Assembly (NCBI RefSeq): GCF_000150955.2
Contig: NC_011669.1
Span: forward strand, 883,667-947,666
Direction: 5' to 3'
DNA from: Phaeodactylum tricornutum CCAP 1055/1
Taxonomy: Eukaryota > Bacillariophyta > Bacillariophyceae > Surirellales > Neidiaceae
DNA: 64,000 nt
In this document: piece by piece, positions 7,996 to 61,982 of the stretch
How positions within the stretch are numbered: the stretch's first letter is position 1
Layout: the number at the start of each line of letters is the position of its first letter
Made by a program: the position numbers and the translations under genes
The notes under the pieces: generated by a model
Databases searched by the model: none
Told to the model about the DNA's origin: nothing
The model's input: the letters and a program-made list of their open reading frames with translations, nothing else

Positions 7996-8681
7996 GATCC
8001 TGTCTTCTCAAAATCACGGAGACAGAGGAATTGTCAATACAAGGTCGACCTCGTGAAAGAAACGAAAGTCCGCGGAGCGCCAAACGCGTCAACTACACAA
8101 AAAAGGATGAACAAGACAAAGAGATGCGTGGAAAACCCTTCTCGGTCATCGTTGCCGTTTCCGGCTACGAGCTTCGTTCACGTCAGGAGCTTGCACACCT
8201 GGTTTTCTGAACCCTGACTATATACCGTCTTTAAAAAATACCCGGATTGGAATGAGAGGACTACTATAAATTTGCGCGACGAAATTTTCTCGCATACATA
8301 CAACTGATATCGATATGTAAGGGAACGAGCTTAAGTGGATTTTTGAAACGGGAATTGAAGGTGAGAAACCGTGGTAGTCGTGCTCTGTTTCGTTCCCGTC
8401 CGTTTCACTCGTTACAAACAATCAGCCCCTGGCCTGGCCAGCGCTTAACCACTTATAGTATCTATGGCTACGGCGGCATGTATACGAGAACTCACAGTCA
8501 GCGAATAACGGTCCTCTCGAGCCCGCTCGCTGTAGCTGTCGTTATTTTTTTGCCAAAGGCAGCGCCCATTGTTGCAGACAACCAGACGGATACAAAGTGT
8601 TCGGCAAAAATACTGAGCCTGGTCTTTGCTTATCTACATCATTCTTTTGTTTCACAACAGTCAGTGGAATATCGAGCACCA
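7996..8681. promoter_or_regulatory. Divergent region, ankyrin gene / glycosyltransferase
   Basis: The frame of the glycosyltransferase stays open back to about 8343 but has no recognisable protein there. It contains an exact CTCACAGTCAG at 8491-8501, 181 bp before the chosen ATG. A polypyrimidine stretch ending TTTCACAACAG at 8657 looks like a 3' splice site, so a 5'-UTR intron is possible. Confidence 0.45.
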
Positions 8682-11003
8682 ATGGCCGCCGCCAACGTCA
8701 AAGAGGTATGGAAACCTGTGCGAAAATCCGTCCTGTACCTCATTGCGGCAGTCGCGCTTGCAATCTCGGCATCGACGGTTGGGGGTAACTCATTGCCGGC
8801 AGGTAGTAGAACGCAGGTCGAAGCCGTGGACGATGTCGGTACAAGTGCGCAAGATAATAGTCACTCCCGCCGCTTGCTAGGTTATCAACGAGTCACGGTT
8901 TACACAACAGCTCCGGAAGCCGATCAGGACAATCCGATTGCACGCAAACAGTTCGCCGACTTGATCGCCTCCCTGCCCACGGATGTGACAACCCTCGATG
9001 TTGTTGCCTTAAACTTAATGGAACAACGCCATTTTCTGGAGCAGAATTGTTACGGGAAAGAGGAGGACAACATGCCCGTAAAAATGAGCGCTCTGAAGCG
9101 TTTCGACGAACTGCGTACGCGTGGACAAGATCATCTCGCAACCGAAGTCTACAAGTGGTGCGCGTTGAAAACGAAACCCTACCTCTCTGACTCGGTGGCG
9201 TACATTGATTCATCCAGTCCATTGCTGATGCGACTGCAAGACTTTTTGTCGGACGTACAAAATGTGGTAGTCTTAGGAGACGATTATTTCCCCCACACTG
9301 CTCATGGCAGTCTGATTGTGTTGCGCGATAATCAACTCTACGTAGCGGAACAGATGATGAAAGTTCTTCTGGAAACTCCGGCGGAGCACTTGGAAGTAAA
9401 CCCTCTTCTTTTGCCGCAGCGCTTGTACGAAGCGGTGGCGTTCGCTTCCGCCAAAAAGCATCCTAAACCGGGCAAGGTGGGCGATTTCCTACTGTTGAAA
9501 GAGACATGCCGAATGGATCCCTTGAGGCGCCACAATGATGATGCAAAAGGCTGGACGGATACACAAACTCGTCGCCACGTACACCACTGCCCCGAACGTG
9601 CAGGCTTTTGCTGCTCAATTCACGACATATCTCGTAACCGTGTCGTCCTCATGAGTCGTCATCCTCTGTTGCCATTTCAAATTCTGTCCCAATCATTTTC
9701 TCGGCCTTACAACGCCGAAGCGGATCACTATGAAGAAGACGAGCTGCCCTACATCACCACAATCCAGGCTACTTTTCACGAGCGGCCTGCGGATATGCCC
9801 GAGACACCTAACTTTTACGCCTTGCTTGCCGCGAAAGATTGCTTGCCCGACAAAGAAGAATGCTCTAAGTGCTGCCGAAACCAGGCCGGTGCTACAAGGG
9901 AACTATGTGCCAAAGACTGCCCTTGCTATGCGAAGGCTCTCTGTTCGGATAAACCTCCACCAAAGCATGTTGCTCATACGTGGACTGTAACCCCACCGGC
10001 CTACACGCGCGATCCCAACCGTGTTGTTCCCCGTATCGTACACCAAACTTGGTTCGAAGACCTAGCCCAGGACAGGTACCCAAATATGAGCCGCATGGTC
10101 CAATCGTTCCGTAACTCTGGCTGGGAGTACAAATTCTACAACGACGATGACGCAGTTAATTTTTTGAGTACGCACTTTCCGCCGGAAGTGCGAGAAGCAT
10201 ACGAAGCTCTTCGCCCTGGTGCCTTTAAGGCCGATCTCTTTCGGTATTGTGTGCTGTTGATACACGGTGGTCTCTATGCTGACGTTGACATCATGTTGGA
10301 ATCGGCTTTGGATGCGGCCATTGGACCGGATGTAGGATTTATGGTTCCGACAGACGAGCCCGGCATGGCCACAAATCACCGGATGTGTCTATGGAATGGA
10401 ATGATCGCCGCCGCTCCAGGTCATCCGTATCTGGCGAAAGCCATCGAAACCGTCGTGAATCAAGTCCGAAACCGATTTACATCTGTTGATATTGATGCCA
10501 CCCTCTGCCCCAATCCGGAGCTCTCCATCTCGCACGCTTATGATACTCTCTTCACTGCAGGACCGTGCTTGCTGGGTGCCTCAATCAATCGAGTTCTGGG
10601 ACGGCATCCACAAAAATCCTTTACAGCTGGGGAAATTAACATTTTGGCTGATCGCCGACAATTAGAAGCCGGTACATCGTTTATTGTCGGAGACGGTGTT
10701 GCATTGGAGGCACGCGTGCCAGGAAGGAGTGTGATTTTGAAGCAGGACAAGTGGGATATGGGCGCGCATCGATTTACCTACGTGGAGCGCAACTTGGTTG
10801 TCTCGGCCACAGATCTGCAAGATTCAAATGATAGGGACACTCACAAAAAGAACAAAAAAACAGAGCATTACAGCACGACACACGCCAAGACGGGTATTTA
10901 TGGATTGGAAGGTCTGTACACAGACACACGTATTGCAAATGAAGATATTCGGATTATACTGGATGTTTCCAAGCAGGCTAGTGTCCCATCGTCTACGTCT
11001 TAG
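8682..11003 (+). CDS. OCH1-like glycosyltransferase (DXD sugar-binding family), type II membrane protein
   Basis: This is a 773-residue single-exon protein. The ATG at 8682 (MAAANVKEVWK) puts a signal-anchor (SVLYLIAAVALAISAS) at residues 16-31; upstream in-frame sequence contains a promoter-type motif and is left out. Residues about 30-430 are unassigned, and a Cys-rich patch (CLPDKEECSKCC ... CAKDCPC) follows near 385-420. The catalytic domain at about 445-600 has PRIVHQTWFE, WEYKFYNDDD, GAFKADLFRYCVLLIHGGLYADVDI (with the DXD acidic motif) and NGMIAAAPGHPYL. This is the Gly_transf_sug/OCH1 pattern. Known members add hexoses to glycans or inositol-phospho-lipids in the Golgi. The donor and acceptor cannot be inferred. 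The long N-terminal luminal region may be a second, unrecognised domain. Confidence 0.85.
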   Translation: MAAANVKEVWKPVRKSVLYLIAAVALAISASTVGGNSLPAGSRTQVEAVDDVGTSAQDNSHSRRLLGYQRVTVYTTAPEADQDNPIARKQFADLIASLPTDVTTLDVVALNLMEQRHFLEQNCYGKEEDNMPVKMSALKRFDELRTRGQDHLATEVYKWCALKTKPYLSDSVAYIDSSSPLLMRLQDFLSDVQNVVVLGDDYFPHTAHGSLIVLRDNQLYVAEQMMKVLLETPAEHLEVNPLLLPQRLYEAVAFASAKKHPKPGKVGDFLLLKETCRMDPLRRHNDDAKGWTDTQTRRHVHHCPERAGFCCSIHDISRNRVVLMSRHPLLPFQILSQSFSRPYNAEADHYEEDELPYITTIQATFHERPADMPETPNFYALLAAKDCLPDKEECSKCCRNQAGATRELCAKDCPCYAKALCSDKPPPKHVAHTWTVTPPAYTRDPNRVVPRIVHQTWFEDLAQDRYPNMSRMVQSFRNSGWEYKFYNDDDAVNFLSTHFPPEVREAYEALRPGAFKADLFRYCVLLIHGGLYADVDIMLESALDAAIGPDVGFMVPTDEPGMATNHRMCLWNGMIAAAPGHPYLAKAIETVVNQVRNRFTSVDIDATLCPNPELSISHAYDTLFTAGPCLLGASINRVLGRHPQKSFTAGEINILADRRQLEAGTSFIVGDGVALEARVPGRSVILKQDKWDMGAHRFTYVERNLVVSATDLQDSNDRDTHKKNKKTEHYSTTHAKTGIYGLEGLYTDTRIANEDIRIILDVSKQASVPSSTS

Positions 11004-35642: not shown

Positions 35643-37450
35643 ATGGCAGCAATGTCGGGTCCCCGAATATTCGTTGGCAAGGAGTCACATCCTGTCACCA
35701 CCCCAGCTGTTCGCTCACGCGGACCAGTCACTCCAGTTGAAAATGGTGATGGCACAATATTCGTATCGATTCCGTCCTATCGAGGTACGTTCTGGATCGT
35801 GGAGTCCATCGCTGTCCTCGTTCACGCAAACCTCTCTAACCAAGATCTCTGCGTCTTTTCCTAGACGGGGAACGTTGCGGAGAGACTCTGAAAGCCCTTT
35901 TTGAAAACGCAAAGAATCCTGATAAGATTTTTGTGGGATTAGTGGAACAAAACAACGCAGAAGATAAATTTTGTATGGAACAGTACTGCAGTTCATACGG
36001 TAAGTCCAAATTAATAACTGTCGAAAACCTTTTTCGATTTCTTTGAAATAAAGCTTATGATGATCTCCTTTCAGGTGTTCAAACAATCAAGCGAAACAAA
36101 ATTCGGGAAGATATGTTCAAAGTTGTCGCTGAGAAGCGCCGGGGGGATTGCCCACGCTTTGATCAAATCGGCTACGTTGCATACCACAATATCAATGCAA
36201 AGGGTCCTATGTTGGCCCGAAGCTTGGCACGTAAAGTTTTGGGTAACGAAGAATTTTGTATGCAAATTGATGCCCACACGGACTTCGCAAAGGACTGGGA
36301 CGAAATTTTACGTGACCAGTGGAAAAGAACGAAAAACGAATTTGGAATCCTGTCAACTGTTCCACCACCGAAGTCAGCAAAGGCTGACTATTCACCTGGA
36401 GGATCAGAAGAAAACGATGTTCCCCGCCAGTGTATGGTAAAATTTCGCGACAATGGCTTTCCGGTATGTTTCTGTCAACGGAAAAAGTTGTATTGAGATT
36501 CCTAATTGATCAATTGCTGACTGGTGTGTCCTTCCTTAGGATTACGAATCGCCTGCTGATGGTCGAGCGTTGGAACTGACGGAGCCACTTTTGTCCTTAG
36601 GATGGTCTGCTGCTTTCTCATTTGCCAAGTGCCATCTGGAAGAGACTACGCCATATGATCCATTTTCTTACTATGCCATGCCCGTCGAACAGTTCTCTCG
36701 ATACGCTCGTTTCTGGACAAGAGGGTAAGTTTACACCCGACCCCCTCGAACACCTACAGATCGATCTAAATGTTACCATTTATGCTTTTCAGATATGACA
36801 CGTATACGCCTACAAAAAATGTGGTGTTTCACGACTTCGAATTGCAGGCGAACGGTCATGGCAACAATGAGTGGTTTAAGCGTCAAAGAGATCGCTTTCG
36901 TAAGATGGCAATCAAGCGAGCGAAGACACTAATTCATGCCACATATCCGAAGCCGACGGATGTAGAGCTGGCGAATATGGGGATATATGGCCTCGGTAAA
37001 CGTCGAACATTGGAACAGCTGGCTGACTTTGCGAATATCGATTTTACCATACCACGTGGGAATACGGGTGCAAGTTTGAAATGTTCAGATCTTGAATGGG
37101 TGGCGTATGATGCATCTATTTCCCCGGTGGAAAATTTATACGACAAACCCGATAATCTTGAGTCTCAGCCCGAGTATCCGAGGCGTACAAAGCTTGTCTA
37201 TTATGAGCAAGTAGAAGAGCCGTTACCTCTGCCGGAAATGACAACATCAACAAATATTCGACCTCACGAGCAGGTAGTCGATACGTTTGAGAATGTATCT
37301 GAAACGAATACCAACTTGCCGTCAGCCTCCTTAATTTTTGTTCTCTGGACCTTTGGTTTGATTGTGTGGTGTGCCATGTTTGCCAGCACTGGATCCAAAG
37401 CGCAACGGCCCGCACGAAGAAAGAAGGCAGCAATGGCAAAAGATGTCTAA
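35643..37450 (+). CDS. GlcNAc-transferase-like glycosyltransferase (GT60/PF11397 type) with C-terminal membrane segment
   Basis: There are five exons, 35643-35784, 35865-35999, 36075-36463, 36540-36724 and 36793-37450. The introns of 80, 75, 76 and 68 bp are all GT-AG with matching phases, giving 502 residues. The start MAAMSGPRIFVGKES is the ATG just after a TAACAGTAAG motif. The domain begins TIFVSIPSYRDGERCGETLKALF and continues KIFVGLVEQN, GPMLARSLA, FCMQIDAHTDFAKDWDEIL, SLGWSAAFSFAK and YDTYTPTKNVVFHDF. This is the pattern of the family that includes the Skp1 GlcNAc transferase of Dictyostelium. The DAH segment takes the place of DXD. A hydrophobic stretch (LIFVLWTFGLIVWCAMFAST) lies 43-24 residues from the C-terminus with a basic tail after it, suggesting tail anchoring with a cytosolic catalytic domain. 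That would suit a cytoplasmic acceptor, but this is inference. Confidence 0.85.
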
Positions 37451-37592: not shown

Positions 37593-40188
37593 TTACTCTA
37601 TCTCCTGTTTCTTCAGTAGCCTGTCCCAATTTTTTACTGTCCAAGGGAATCCCACTCTTGCATCGGGTGGCAGAAGAGGACCTACTCTCTCCCAAACTCC
37701 CGCCTTCCCGCTGGCTCCCAGATTTCGGCAACGACTGTAGTATCCTCCATGAGCTCTGAAGACATCTTTTTGTCCACATTTGATCGGTCCGCCACATTTC
37801 AGCTTGTCGTAGAAGCTCCCAGGGATGATTCGAAAATCCAGTGATACTCTGGTTTGTAAAGTTTTATTGTCTGTTGTCCAGTGCGTACAAATTGCACCAG
37901 CAAAGTGCTTTAGGTAGCCTAATTACTCGAGTTGAACAGAAAGAAATTGAGCTTCAAGCGAAAATCTATGTAAGGCCAAAGAAAGGACACTCACCGTAGT
38001 CTCCTTCAATTGGATGCCAATCTTCGCTTCCGGGACGACTTTCGAGAAACAATGCAGATGTACCGCCAATTGGTGTCAATGGAACATACATATTTATACT
38101 GCATGGATGGTGGCCATATGAAACATCTGCATGGGGGCCGATGCTAAACTCATTTGGTCGCACTACTCGTATACAAGGAAAAGCTTGGTAATAGAATTCG
38201 TCGCAGTATCCCATTTCGCAAACCGCTGGAGCGCACACTTCACGAACAAACTTATCATAGATAAGATGAAAGCTAGTGAATGATTTGGTCAGCTGGCAAA
38301 AAAAGTTGGCTTTCTCTTTGGACATTGCATGAAAATTGGAAAGGTCAAATGTATCTAAGAGCCCACCGCATTTCAACAGCGACAAGCGAAGGGGATATTT
38401 GGCCGTATCAAAACCAAAACTGCCTTCTGTGCCGAAGCTCAGCTTGAACTGCGCCACAACATCATCGAAATGGTTGAGTCCTGACGCTTGACGAATAGCC
38501 TCGAGCGTTTCTGATCGTCGGTTGGTAGCCTTCCGAATGTGAGGTTCAATCGAGAGGCGTATGTCCAGAGGAAAAGGATCATATGGTATCGTTACTGAAT
38601 TTTTTGTGGCCTTAGCAACGGTTGAGCCAAACCAGTGGTGTTCTTCAAGCTGGGCCTTTCCCTGATAGTTTCCCGTATCGGACTGTATCTTGGAAATGAT
38701 GTCCGTCGTGCTCTGGCCCTTATAGTAGGGTATTCGTTGAAAGCAGCCTGAATTCACGGGATAGAGAAAAAAATCCGCTTGTTTTTCCGCGTCGACATCA
38801 TTCGCAAAACCATGTACAACCAGATCTATTCCGTGCTGATGCATGAAGGATTCAGTTACAATCAAAGGGCACGGGCACACCACGAAATCCACTTCTCCAA
38901 TTGATCTAACCAAAGTCTTCCGGTCGATCTGGGAAATGATGGGCGGGCGCTTGTATACCGAAGCATCGTCATCACCTGTCACACCAATTATGACACGGTT
39001 TCCTAGTTTGGCACAATGTCGGATGGCTTCCAAGTGCCCGACATGAAAGAGGTCAAAGATGCCGTCCATGTAAACAGTTCGTTGAGGTCGAGGCCTCGAT
39101 TTAATCGGTGCTGGATTAGCTTCCTCCCTGTACTGATCTTCCTTTTCAGTCTGCTCTTTCAAATAATGAAACAACTGATCTCGTCCATGTAGTGTATGTC
39201 GTCGTTCCTTGCGCGACGAAGGTTGCATCGGCAAATAGTGCAAATCCTGTAAGGGAACTTTGGTACCACATTGCCACACTCCACCAGCTTTGGTATGAGG
39301 GAATAGATTCCCATCGTCCTCTACCAAGTGATTATTGTATAAATCCTTCGGGGCCCGGTGACTCTCACTTTGATAGTAAACATTAAAGCAGTCCAAACCA
39401 AATGCACGTTTCAACAATACAACTGGTGCCCTCGGGCCTTTGATTCCCGTCAATGGTCCAAACTTCAGGTCTAGTGTAAGAGGAAAGAGTTCACTCTCTC
39501 GATATGCTTCTTTCGGCCACAGCTCTATAGCTTTTCTCGAGCTGAAGTGCCACAACGGGAAAAGTGGAGTTCTTTCCTTTTGCGAAAAACAGGATTCCTG
39601 GATCGTACCCGTAATGCCTTCGACGTAATTCTTTGGTTGGGGTTGTCCATTCTTTTTGACGCCAAGTACTTTGGATAGGTCGGAGAGCGTATCGTATCGG
39701 CGCAGTTGAAACAAGTCAATATACACATTATTCATACGACACGGTCTAATCCGATCGCCTCCTTCCCAAGCTCGTCGCTGATACATGTAGAGCTGATCTC
39801 CAAGAAACATGTGTAAATTGAGCGACACTCTTTCGTAGTCTCCATCGTAGTCGACGATCGCAATATCGATGTCGTCATCACAAAAAAGTATACTGTGTTG
39901 GCGAACAGCACCAAGCAGGGATCCTCCTGTTACGATGTAGTCGACGTCGAGTCGATTTAAGGCAGAAACTACGTCTCGAAAGGTTTGATACAAGGCGTCA
40001 ACCTCTTTTCTGCTCAATAGTGTCGGTTTCGGGCCTAGCTTGGGGACGGGTTGAGAAGGCAAATTGTCCATCAAAGAACCGTGAACTTTTGTTTGATCAA
40101 TTACCGTAGACAAATCATGTTTCGAGATGTTGACAGTGAACGACATTCGACGTTCCATGAGGAGCGAATTTTGGTGGCTGGATCCCAT
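37593..40188 (-). CDS. Three-domain fusion: LicD transferase, CTP:phosphocholine/ethanolamine cytidylyltransferase, 2OG-Fe(II) dioxygenase
   Basis: There are two exons, 37995-40188 and 37593-37918, with a 76-bp intron (GTGAGT...AATTAG, phase 1), giving 839 residues. Reading through the donor would stop after 8 codons and lose the end of the last domain. Domain 1 (about 58-280) is LicD/fukutin-like: TGGSLLGAVR (87-96), CDDDIDIAI (103-111), ELFPL...FGPL, and a closing FG.DC.NVYY. Domain 2 (370-505) is a cytidylyltransferase: VYMDGIFDLFHVGHLEAIR with HVGH 382-385, VYKRPP, IDLVVHG, GQSTTDIISKI. Domain 3 (about 620-790) is dioxygenase-like: GPHADVSYG (His686, Asp688) in exon 1, and HWTTDNKTLQTRVSLDFR (His744, Arg755) in exon 2. 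No signal peptide is seen. The likely chemistry is making CDP-choline or CDP-ethanolamine, transferring the phospho-base to a glycan or polyol, and hydroxylating; the substrate is unknown. Confidence 0.85.
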
Positions 40189-59330: not shown

Positions 59331-59753
59331 AACAGTGTTCGAAACTCGTAAATTTGGACTCTATCTAGCTGGGTCTCTCCACCTTTTGTATGCATGAGCG
59401 AATCCTTTGTGTCAGGGTTGATCTCGGTACCAGTGTTGTTCCGGCCGACGGCTCCTTGACTAACTGTGAATTCTTTCACAGTTCTGCTCACGCGATATCT
59501 GTGATGCTCATGCTCAAAATGACGAGATTTATCAGAAGCGCAAAAAGTACACGCGCCTGTATTTTTTGACTCGATCGCATTGTCGTTGTTTTCGTCTTTA
59601 TGGTAGGCGCCTTTCTGATTCTGAAATTCGACCGTAAACTCCTTTGTTAGGATGTCTCGACAGTGGGCCCGAACTTATCACATTTGATAAACCCAAGTGG
59701 TAAAACCGCCAAGGTACAATCTCTAACCAAGACGCTGGCGCTCACTTGAAAGC
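59331..59753. promoter_or_regulatory. Divergent promoter, Sec14-like / sulfotransferase, with perfect inverted repeat
   Basis: AACTGTGAA at 59462-59470 and TTCACAGTT at 59475-59483 are exact reverse complements separated by 4 bp. They combine two copies of the ACTGTGA core found elsewhere in this window. They lie about 130 bp from one ATG and 270 bp from the other. Confidence 0.5.
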
Positions 59754-61982
59754 ATGATGTCGGAGGACAAAAGGAGCCGTGATGCACCGTCAGATCTTTC
59801 CGAGGGCGGTGTTACTGCTTCTCACAGTATTGAGTCGCTGGAGCCGAGAAACTCCCTGACCGGCGCCATGTTCCTTTATTGGGTTGTCCCAGTTCTATTG
59901 TTTGCAGTTTTCAGTCGACTGACGGTAGACACAAACGTTGGCACTGTCAAAACGAAACCTTTAAAGTCGATTCCTATCCAGCTCGATCAGGACTATATCG
60001 ATTCGACACCATCGGTCAGGCCGACCCAAGCACCCATCCCAGTTCGGCAAGCCGATAATCCTTCCTTACCATCCCGGTGGCCCACATCGTACCGCGCAAC
60101 AATAGAGAAAATTGAACGTCGTCGTCCACACTGGAAAAACAAGCCCACTTTGTCTCCGTCTGCTCAGCCTTCGGCAGCCGACAGCAAAAAATTGGAGGAC
60201 ACCGTTACTTCCTCACCGCTGCCTAATGGTCGCAACGCTGGTGGCCGTCCTCGGGGCCGGGCATCGGACCCGAACCGTCTCATGATCATCGAAAAGATTG
60301 ATGCAATGAGACAGGACGTTGTAGATGACCCTGCCGATATTTACAAGGCGATTGAATTTGCGGACGCCTTGCGTTTCTACGATCTACAGTACCGGGAAGG
60401 TGGTACTTATGAAACGGAAGCAATTGACACTTACAACAAAGTAGTTGGTCTTGTGGTAGCCAAACGGAATAAGCTGGTTGCTGCAAATCAACCGACCAAT
60501 GTTTCCTTGAATGGTTCGCGAACGAAGTCCGTGAGCGACGAAGTCACTCTGGACTATGCCTCAAAGAGCGCTGACGGCCTCGTTTGTGCTGTATACACGG
60601 CGCTTGGGAAAGTCTACTACATGGCCAACATGTTTGAACGAGCGGCGAAGAGTTACACGGAATGTCTAGAAATTGCACCAAGCTACTTGGATGCGGTTAA
60701 CGCACGCGCGTCAACGAACATTATCTTGGGCAAGTACGCTGAGGCTGGTGCCGATTTTTTGAAAGTCGTTCGGGAGGATGAACAACGATTGTTTCCAGAT
60801 TCTTTCTCCGGAATTGCTCGTGTACTCGAAGCACAAGAGGATGCGATTCCTGGAGGGTGGGGGCCAGTAGTTGAGTTGCTGGATCAATTAATTCCTTCTT
60901 TTGAAGCACAATGGGCGTCTGCCCCGCCCCAGACAAAGCAAATTTTCGGGAATGGTCTCAATCGATTCCATCATTCGCTCTTCACCTATCACGACAAGAA
61001 GACGAAAGCATATTCCGAGGCATGGCATCATCTCACCGAAGCATACCAGTACAAAATGGCAAATTTACCTGTTTGGCAGTCAGGGCAAGAGTCGACAAAA
61101 TCATTCCAGACCAAGCAAATTTTCAAGCCAGGATTCTGGTCCCCGGGAGTAGGCAGCGAGACCGAGACGCCAATCTTCATCATTGGCTTTGTCCGCAGTG
61201 GGTCAACTCTTCTCGAACGAATATTGGACGCCCATCCAAAAATTGTTGGCACCGGCGAAAATTCTGTCTTTAACGGACGCCTTGACGATATTCGCAATAA
61301 GATTGTTCAAGTCAGTATGGGTGGGCGGCGCGAGCAGCTGGGGGAAGTCACTAGACGGCTGGCGGAAGAAGTCGTCGATGGCATGCGAAAGCGTTGGCGA
61401 ATTTTGCAAGCTACCACAGAAACGAGCGGAGTTAGAGACGACATCCCACTGCGATTTGTGGATAAAATGCTCACCAACTACTATAATGTCGGCTTCATTC
61501 ATCTACTGTATCCAAAAGCCTTGATACTTCACGTTTACCGCAATCCAATGGATACGATCTTTTCGGCTTACAAGCATGAATTTCCGAGCGGTACGTTGGA
61601 CTACACATCCGACTTTGACGCTCTAGCCGAGCTTTATCACTCGTACCGTGACATTATCGACCATTGGGACGACGCTCTGCCGGGACGCGTAACACACGTC
61701 CGCTACGAGGACATGGTTCAAGATATGCCCGGTATGGCAAGGGCGATCATCGATGCCACCGGTTTGCCCTGGGATGACAGCGTTCTGCAATTCCACAAGC
61801 AGAAGCACGCAGTCAATACTTTATCCACCACACAGGTGCGCAAGGGAATCTATAAGGACAGTTTGAAATCATGGGCGAAGTACGAGAATGAGCTTCAGCC
61901 AATGGTACAACTGATTGGCGGGCGTGTCCACTTCAATATAAAAGCAACGCTGCAACCTGTTCCGACTAAGGAGGAGTTGTGA
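59754..61982 (+). CDS. Membrane-anchored TPR-sulfotransferase
   Basis: This is a 742-residue single-exon protein. A signal-anchor (GAMFLYWVVPVLLFAVFS) at about 37-54 makes it type II, with the rest in the Golgi lumen. A Pro/Ser-rich stem follows. TPR-like helices lie at about 190-340 (ALGKVYYMANMFERAAKSYTECLEIAPSY and the following repeat, read as two runs). The sulfotransferase domain starts PIFIIGFVRSGSTLLERIL (5'-phosphosulfate loop), GTGENSVF, RFVDKMLTNYYNVGFI, and HVYRNPMDTIFSAY (3'-phosphate site with Arg). It would transfer sulfate from PAPS to a glycan or tyrosine; TPR plus sulfotransferase is also seen in bacterial and algal proteins resembling tyrosylprotein sulfotransferases. A Golgi role in sulfated cell-surface polymers is inference. 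Confidence 0.88.
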   Translation: MMSEDKRSRDAPSDLSEGGVTASHSIESLEPRNSLTGAMFLYWVVPVLLFAVFSRLTVDTNVGTVKTKPLKSIPIQLDQDYIDSTPSVRPTQAPIPVRQADNPSLPSRWPTSYRATIEKIERRRPHWKNKPTLSPSAQPSAADSKKLEDTVTSSPLPNGRNAGGRPRGRASDPNRLMIIEKIDAMRQDVVDDPADIYKAIEFADALRFYDLQYREGGTYETEAIDTYNKVVGLVVAKRNKLVAANQPTNVSLNGSRTKSVSDEVTLDYASKSADGLVCAVYTALGKVYYMANMFERAAKSYTECLEIAPSYLDAVNARASTNIILGKYAEAGADFLKVVREDEQRLFPDSFSGIARVLEAQEDAIPGGWGPVVELLDQLIPSFEAQWASAPPQTKQIFGNGLNRFHHSLFTYHDKKTKAYSEAWHHLTEAYQYKMANLPVWQSGQESTKSFQTKQIFKPGFWSPGVGSETETPIFIIGFVRSGSTLLERILDAHPKIVGTGENSVFNGRLDDIRNKIVQVSMGGRREQLGEVTRRLAEEVVDGMRKRWRILQATTETSGVRDDIPLRFVDKMLTNYYNVGFIHLLYPKALILHVYRNPMDTIFSAYKHEFPSGTLDYTSDFDALAELYHSYRDIIDHWDDALPGRVTHVRYEDMVQDMPGMARAIIDATGLPWDDSVLQFHKQKHAVNTLSTTQVRKGIYKDSLKSWAKYENELQPMVQLIGGRVHFNIKATLQPVPTKEEL

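Follow-up and report, generated by a model that had tools for sequence, protein, structure and literature searches.

Why would a diatom place a LicD/FKRP-like transferase, a cytidylyltransferase-like domain and a dioxygenase dependent on 2-oxoglutarate and iron (2OG-Fe(II)) one behind the other in a single protein? The question is raised by a gene on the minus strand (37593..40188) of a 64,000-nucleotide stretch of Phaeodactylum tricornutum DNA, here called the window, which belongs to an assembly of 27.45 Mb in 88 contigs. Our analysis confirms that one chain carries the three enzyme domains in a conserved order, and the best explanation, to which we give a probability of about 0.48, is a soluble trifunctional enzyme that builds, attaches and modifies a tag. 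The ECT-like middle domain would take CMP from CTP and link it to a compound resembling phosphoethanolamine or phosphocholine, or else to a small polyol phosphate; the LicD/FKRP-like domain would move the phospho-head-group from this CDP-activated donor to a hydroxyl group carried by a sugar, a glycan or a polyol; and the third domain, which resembles StrG and TIGR04324 proteins, would act by hydroxylation or another oxidation on the head group, on the acceptor sugar or on the product. The explanation is built on the open chain, the three folds seen in models of homologues, the conserved catalytic residues and the conserved order, and we infer that the domains share a pathway, that CTP is the nucleotide, that the reactions run in this order and that the target is a sugar or glycan.

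Three domains in one spliced chain

A preliminary description, made from the letters of the window, had claimed a spliced product of 839 residues, and joining the predicted exons (40188..37995 and 37918..37593, beginning with a minus-strand ATG at 40188) reproduces it exactly. Exon 1 (37995..40188, minus strand) encodes the first 731 residues together with one base of codon 732, within an open frame from 40215 to 37966, and ends at the donor TACG/GTGAGT. It is followed by a predicted GT-AG intron of 76 nucleotides (37919..37994, minus strand) and by exon 2 (37593..37918, minus strand, stop codon included). Of 15 donor/acceptor pairs tried, two, with a common acceptor, give products longer than 800 residues (839 and 841) and the others products of 734-768; judged by eye, the donor of the 839-residue version is the closer to consensus. 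Similarity to homologues continues across the junction at residue 732. Among 19 homologous gene models that are partial and end inside the third domain, similarity is lost at residues 732-735 in 12, at 728-729 in four and earlier in three, as a shared intron position would lead one to expect, and on these alignments the position is probably common to the window gene and its relatives.

Conservation was assessed in a homologue search that scored only the 7998 candidates with most shared words and found 204 proteins, 120 of which were listed; active-site counts refer to the 70 that cover more than 80% of every domain, the other 50 having lower coverage. The LicD/FKRP-like module (39349..40026, minus strand, residues ~55-280) contains GGSLLG and the acidic motif DDDID (39865..39879, minus strand, residues 104-108), and the tested positions are intact in 69/70. 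Its Pfam LicD (PF04991) score of 20.1 bits lies just under the cut-off of 22.6, though LicD matches 43/43 selected homologues at E<=1 (best 5e-9) and PF04991 is precomputed on some of them. A phmmer match to FKRP (6e-4) and a predicted FKRP-like fold carrying GGSLLG and DDDxD in homologue models agree with this assignment. Compared with FKRP (PDB 6kaj series) and the LicD family, the domain is 20% identical, and the window protein differs in lacking an N-terminal hydrophobic segment and in having its own activating domain.

The middle module (38674..39081, minus strand, residues ~370-505) has the signatures HVGH (39034..39045, minus strand, residues 382-385) and STTD. CTP_transf_like (PF01467) scores 54.4 bits against a cut-off of 21 and matches 43/43 selected homologues at E<=1, and the two histidines of HxGH are present in 119/119 and 120/120 rows with a residue there. 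phmmer gives an ECT match of 5e-29, and the nearest known relatives are human PCYT2 (ECT; PDB IDs: 3elb/4xsv) and choline-phosphate cytidylyltransferase (CCT); unlike PCYT2, the module is a single domain rather than a tandem, has Tyr for the Arg of the RTEGIST motif and sits between two other fused enzymes. The same genome also holds an ECT-like gene of its own, L001, which matches human ECT over both halves (1.9e-72). The paralogue in this genome that comes closest to the middle domain is at L002:1462-2733 (G000:C4; 36% identity), where a cytidylyltransferase domain accompanies a hydrophobic N-terminal half with no Pfam match; the idea that this gene is a CDP-alcohol phosphotransferase fusion was dropped for want of Pfam support.

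The C-terminal module begins with a segment (38389..38646, minus strand, residues ~515-600) that is helical in homologue models and recurs in stand-alone relatives, P0194 among them. The 2OG-Fe(II) core then spans both exons, as had been proposed, with H686 (38131-38133) and D688 (38125-38127) of HxD in the exon 1 part (37995..38388, minus strand, residues 601-731), and the distal His744 (37881-37883) and Arg755 (37848-37850) in the exon 2 part (37803..37918, minus strand). The HxD...H iron triad and the Arg expected to bind 2-oxoglutarate are intact in 67/70 homologues, the three exceptions each being gapped at one position. The third domain has no Pfam match, and its identity rests on a PhyH-like jelly-roll fold predicted in homologue models and on a profile-profile match to relatives from phages (99.9%, 8e-32). 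Because the VIA listing for the full-length protein consists mostly of cytidylyltransferases, the dioxygenase was modelled separately. A search of PDB sequences with the dioxygenase profile gave chance-level matches only, and identity to PtlH, EctD, MysH and other phytanoyl-CoA hydroxylase-like dioxygenases is 11-18%.

The catalytic motifs claimed in the preliminary description are thus all present and conserved, and similarity beyond chance is seen for the first two domains by phmmer and Pfam and for the third by profile-profile comparison and predicted fold. Mean identity to the window protein over the 70 homologues is 59% for LicD, 64% for the cytidylyltransferase-like domain and 58% for the dioxygenase. 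The linker, the helical segment and the tail are less similar (40-49%), and the first 50 residues least of all (18%, from 21 rows). Home-made profiles find the full order in 101/332 collected proteins, a count that is not a frequency, since the collection pools one full-length search with two in which short proteins were searched by single domains; most of the remaining proteins seem to be fragments. Named holders among diatoms, most rows being unnamed, are Nitzschia, Cylindrotheca, Thalassiosira, Skeletonema and Epithemia. A search for the same order in other stramenopiles had been proposed, and named holders do extend beyond diatoms: the fusion occurs in Triparma (Bolidophyceae) and in a transcript labelled Paraphysomonas (Chrysophyceae), and Ectocarpus is the label of a LicD fragment. 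Both the Paraphysomonas transcript and this fragment may be contaminants. The belief that no enzyme with this order has been described also stands, insofar as the titles and abstract openings of the open-access papers listed in our searches contain no description of the three-domain combination. The novelty is one of multidomain architecture, each domain belonging to a known superfamily, and is neither a new fold nor a new kind of system.

Relatives of the oxygenase module

Bacterial members of TIGR04324 (SpoChoClust_2, "sporadic carbohydrate cluster 2OG-Fe(II) oxygenase") and the StrG-annotated Symbiodinium proteins P0194 and P0197 possess a related module in which HxD, the distal His and the Arg are all present. 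Among 44 modules the best match to TIGR04324 is 1.3e-6, and P0125 scores 17 bits against a cut-off of 150, so that by sequence the algal module is a relative, not a member, of this family. Carbohydrate genes surround the bacterial members, and also one phage relative. The window gene is eukaryotic, and its module is fused to LicD and cytidylyltransferase-like domains and has the extra helical N-terminal part. Two further relatives are found in the same genome. One (L010; G000:C22:308251-308769; 38% identity) has, by eye, lost HxD and the distal His to other residues and is probably a pseudoenzyme, to judge from these replacements; the other (L014:1384-3402, G000:C2; 37% identity) appears by eye to keep the triad, and its open frame, which no Pfam model matches, includes a long repetitive N-terminal half.

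Scans of viral contigs with the full family, or with the diatom 2OG domain alone, returned no relatives, and a broader alignment (A3) found 18 loci with a related dioxygenase, several of them nearly identical. In one of these (L020) the dioxygenase lies among NAD-epimerases, a GDP-mannose dehydratase, a glycosyltransferase and a CTP_transf_like gene; the contexts of the other viral loci were judged by eye. Bacterial genome scans gave no loci with A3 and three with alignment A4, for instance L034, near which lie a GDP-mannose dehydratase-like gene, a GHMP kinase, a SIS-domain isomerase and a CTP_transf_3 gene.

In 385 genomes of the class to which G003 belongs, TIGR04324 has a match in 63 and one above its cut-off in 28. 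We inspected 20 neighbourhoods (L069-L088), 19 from the 28 above-cut-off genomes and one from a genome under it (G101), four of the stretches ending at contig ends. A CTP_transf_like gene occurs in 8/20, and each of the eight is HldE-like in joining a nucleotidyltransferase domain to a sugar-kinase domain. Among 20 control stretches taken from these genomes, one holds an HldE-like gene, and even this one (L097), counted as control, is ~23 kb from its own genome's TIGR04324 gene and may be in the cluster. A GmhA-like isomerase group is found in seven TIGR04324 loci (one scanned), and the HldE-like and GmhA-like neighbours together offer a lead to the substrate of these oxygenases. Going by the contents of the neighbourhoods, these oxygenases are part of sugar or glycan pathways that include nucleotide activation, the link to LicD being seen in algae only.

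Function of the fused chain

From bacteria to the human dystroglycan pathway, glycans are decorated by LicD-family transferases working with activating enzymes that are usually separate proteins. In the case of ISPD with FKTN and FKRP, the cytidylyltransferase ISPD is of another family than the fusion's middle domain, and we know of no dioxygenase in the pathway. The logic is nevertheless common, a cytidylyltransferase supplying LicD-family transferases, though as separate proteins unlike the diatom fusion. ISPD is reported to synthesise CDP-ribitol, and FKTN and FKRP to transfer ribitol phosphate (PMC4873967).

Several observations weigh against activation, transfer and oxidation by one chain. 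The Arg of RTEGIST, which is taken as defining the CCT/ECT group and is retained in both L001 and L002, is Tyr (Tyr488 in the window protein, 38725..38727, minus strand) in 120/120 rows with a residue there, so that the nucleotidyl transfer may involve a nucleotide other than CTP or differ in mechanism. The CCT/ECT label given earlier holds in that ECT is nearest overall, but with the Arg absent neither choline nor ethanolamine, nor even CTP, is assured. Two collected proteins, in either of which an exon may have been skipped, lack the middle domain: P0095, with cytochrome b5, LicD and 2OG domains, and P0284, in which LicD is accompanied by the first part of the C-terminal module. The model of the whole chain (pTM 0.47) does not establish that the active sites face each other. 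Finally, the algal-domain profile finds no LicD match at E<=1e-3 in the 40 bacterial stretches (the 20 test loci were searched for a motif too; a divergent LicD could escape).

If the middle domain were instead HldE-like, it would make a nucleotide-activated sugar from a sugar 1-phosphate and ATP or CTP, LicD would transfer the sugar phosphate and the 2OG domain would act on the sugar. This would suit its best NCBIfam match, rfaE_dom_II (HldE-type adenylyltransferase, 3.4e-13), the PHROG heptose adenylyltransferase match in 43/43 homologues, the absence of the RTEGIST Arg from seven aligned HldE-like neighbours of bacterial TIGR04324 genes as well, and the sugar-kinase domains and recurring GmhA-like group around those genes. 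However, rfaE_dom_II reaches 49.6 bits, well under its cut-off of 181.5, the domain tree sets the middle domain apart from the HldE-like group, and in a PDB profile search ECT is far closer than HldC (170 versus 43 bits), which leaves this reading unlikely. The invariant Arg-to-Tyr change, the separate ECT-like gene and the two proteins without a middle domain could also mean that the domain is a non-catalytic or regulatory remnant, LicD using CDP-choline or CDP-ethanolamine from the ordinary enzymes of the cell and the 2OG domain hydroxylating the product. We doubt this rather more, as D375, D379, H382, H385, K413 and T494 are intact in 70/70 homologues and the middle domain is the best conserved of the three, unexpected for a remnant. 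Phosphonate tailoring, in which the middle domain would make a CMP-phosphonate as in Fom1 for LicD to attach and the 2OG domain to hydroxylate, is improbable given the far higher ECT and CCT scores. A search that was not specific for the enzyme gave PEP_mutase (PF13714) matches elsewhere in the genome at G000:C2:1227228-1227986 and G000:C15:170011-170445.

The dependence of exon 2 on a predicted intron, and a 99% identical protein (P0001) that leaves the frame near residue 698, might suggest that the gene model merges two adjacent genes. Such an artefact is very hard to believe, though, as the single open frame of exon 1 already holds LicD, the cytidylyltransferase-like domain and the HxD of the third, and the same order recurs in the collected proteins, other species' transcripts included. 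Transcripts pointing to two genes would have told against the single polypeptide, and this idea finds no support: all three domains are present in P0003 and P0016, proteins that were predicted from MMETSP transcripts of other species.

Returning to the trifunctional enzyme, its relatives may, somewhat more tentatively, form an ochrophyte-algal family in which a soluble chain activates and attaches a head group and hydroxylates the head group or acceptor, giving diatoms an undescribed phospho-modified, hydroxylated polyol or glycan. Diatoms account for a large share of ocean photosynthesis, and the conserved fusion of activation, transfer and oxidation is a testable lead to a new metabolite or glycan modification in them. 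A query with the LicD part found no second LicD-like gene in this genome (divergent or intron-split genes could escape), so a single knock-out could probe the whole pathway; a six-frame Pfam LicD search likewise had no match at E<=0.001, which follows from the window protein itself scoring under the Pfam cut-off. The fusion also offers a functional handle on the StrG/TIGR04324 oxygenases, no characterised member of which turned up in our searches.

Cellular location and neighbouring genes

The preliminary description had envisaged a surface-glycan or lipid decoration system, and hydropathy gives no support to a surface or secretory one. No segment of the window protein rises above 1.6 on the Kyte-Doolittle scale, and just one of the 70 homologues exceeds this value, marginally, within its first 60 residues. 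Peaks above 1.6 anywhere in the chain occur in 26/70, 24 of them inside the cytidylyltransferase fold. The simplest reading of these profiles is a soluble, cytosolic enzyme, which weighs against a Golgi system of the kind served by FKRP, a Golgi protein. If so, a LicD-type reaction would take place outside the secretory route, with the donor made and used within one molecule.

The convergent neighbour in the window (36047-37450, plus strand) is a PF11397 GlcNAc transferase with, by eye, a hydrophobic segment near its C-terminus, and there is no evidence linking it to the fusion. Further away, the window encodes a protein with TPR and sulfotransferase regions (59727-61982, plus strand) and a DXD glycosyltransferase (8256-11003, plus strand).
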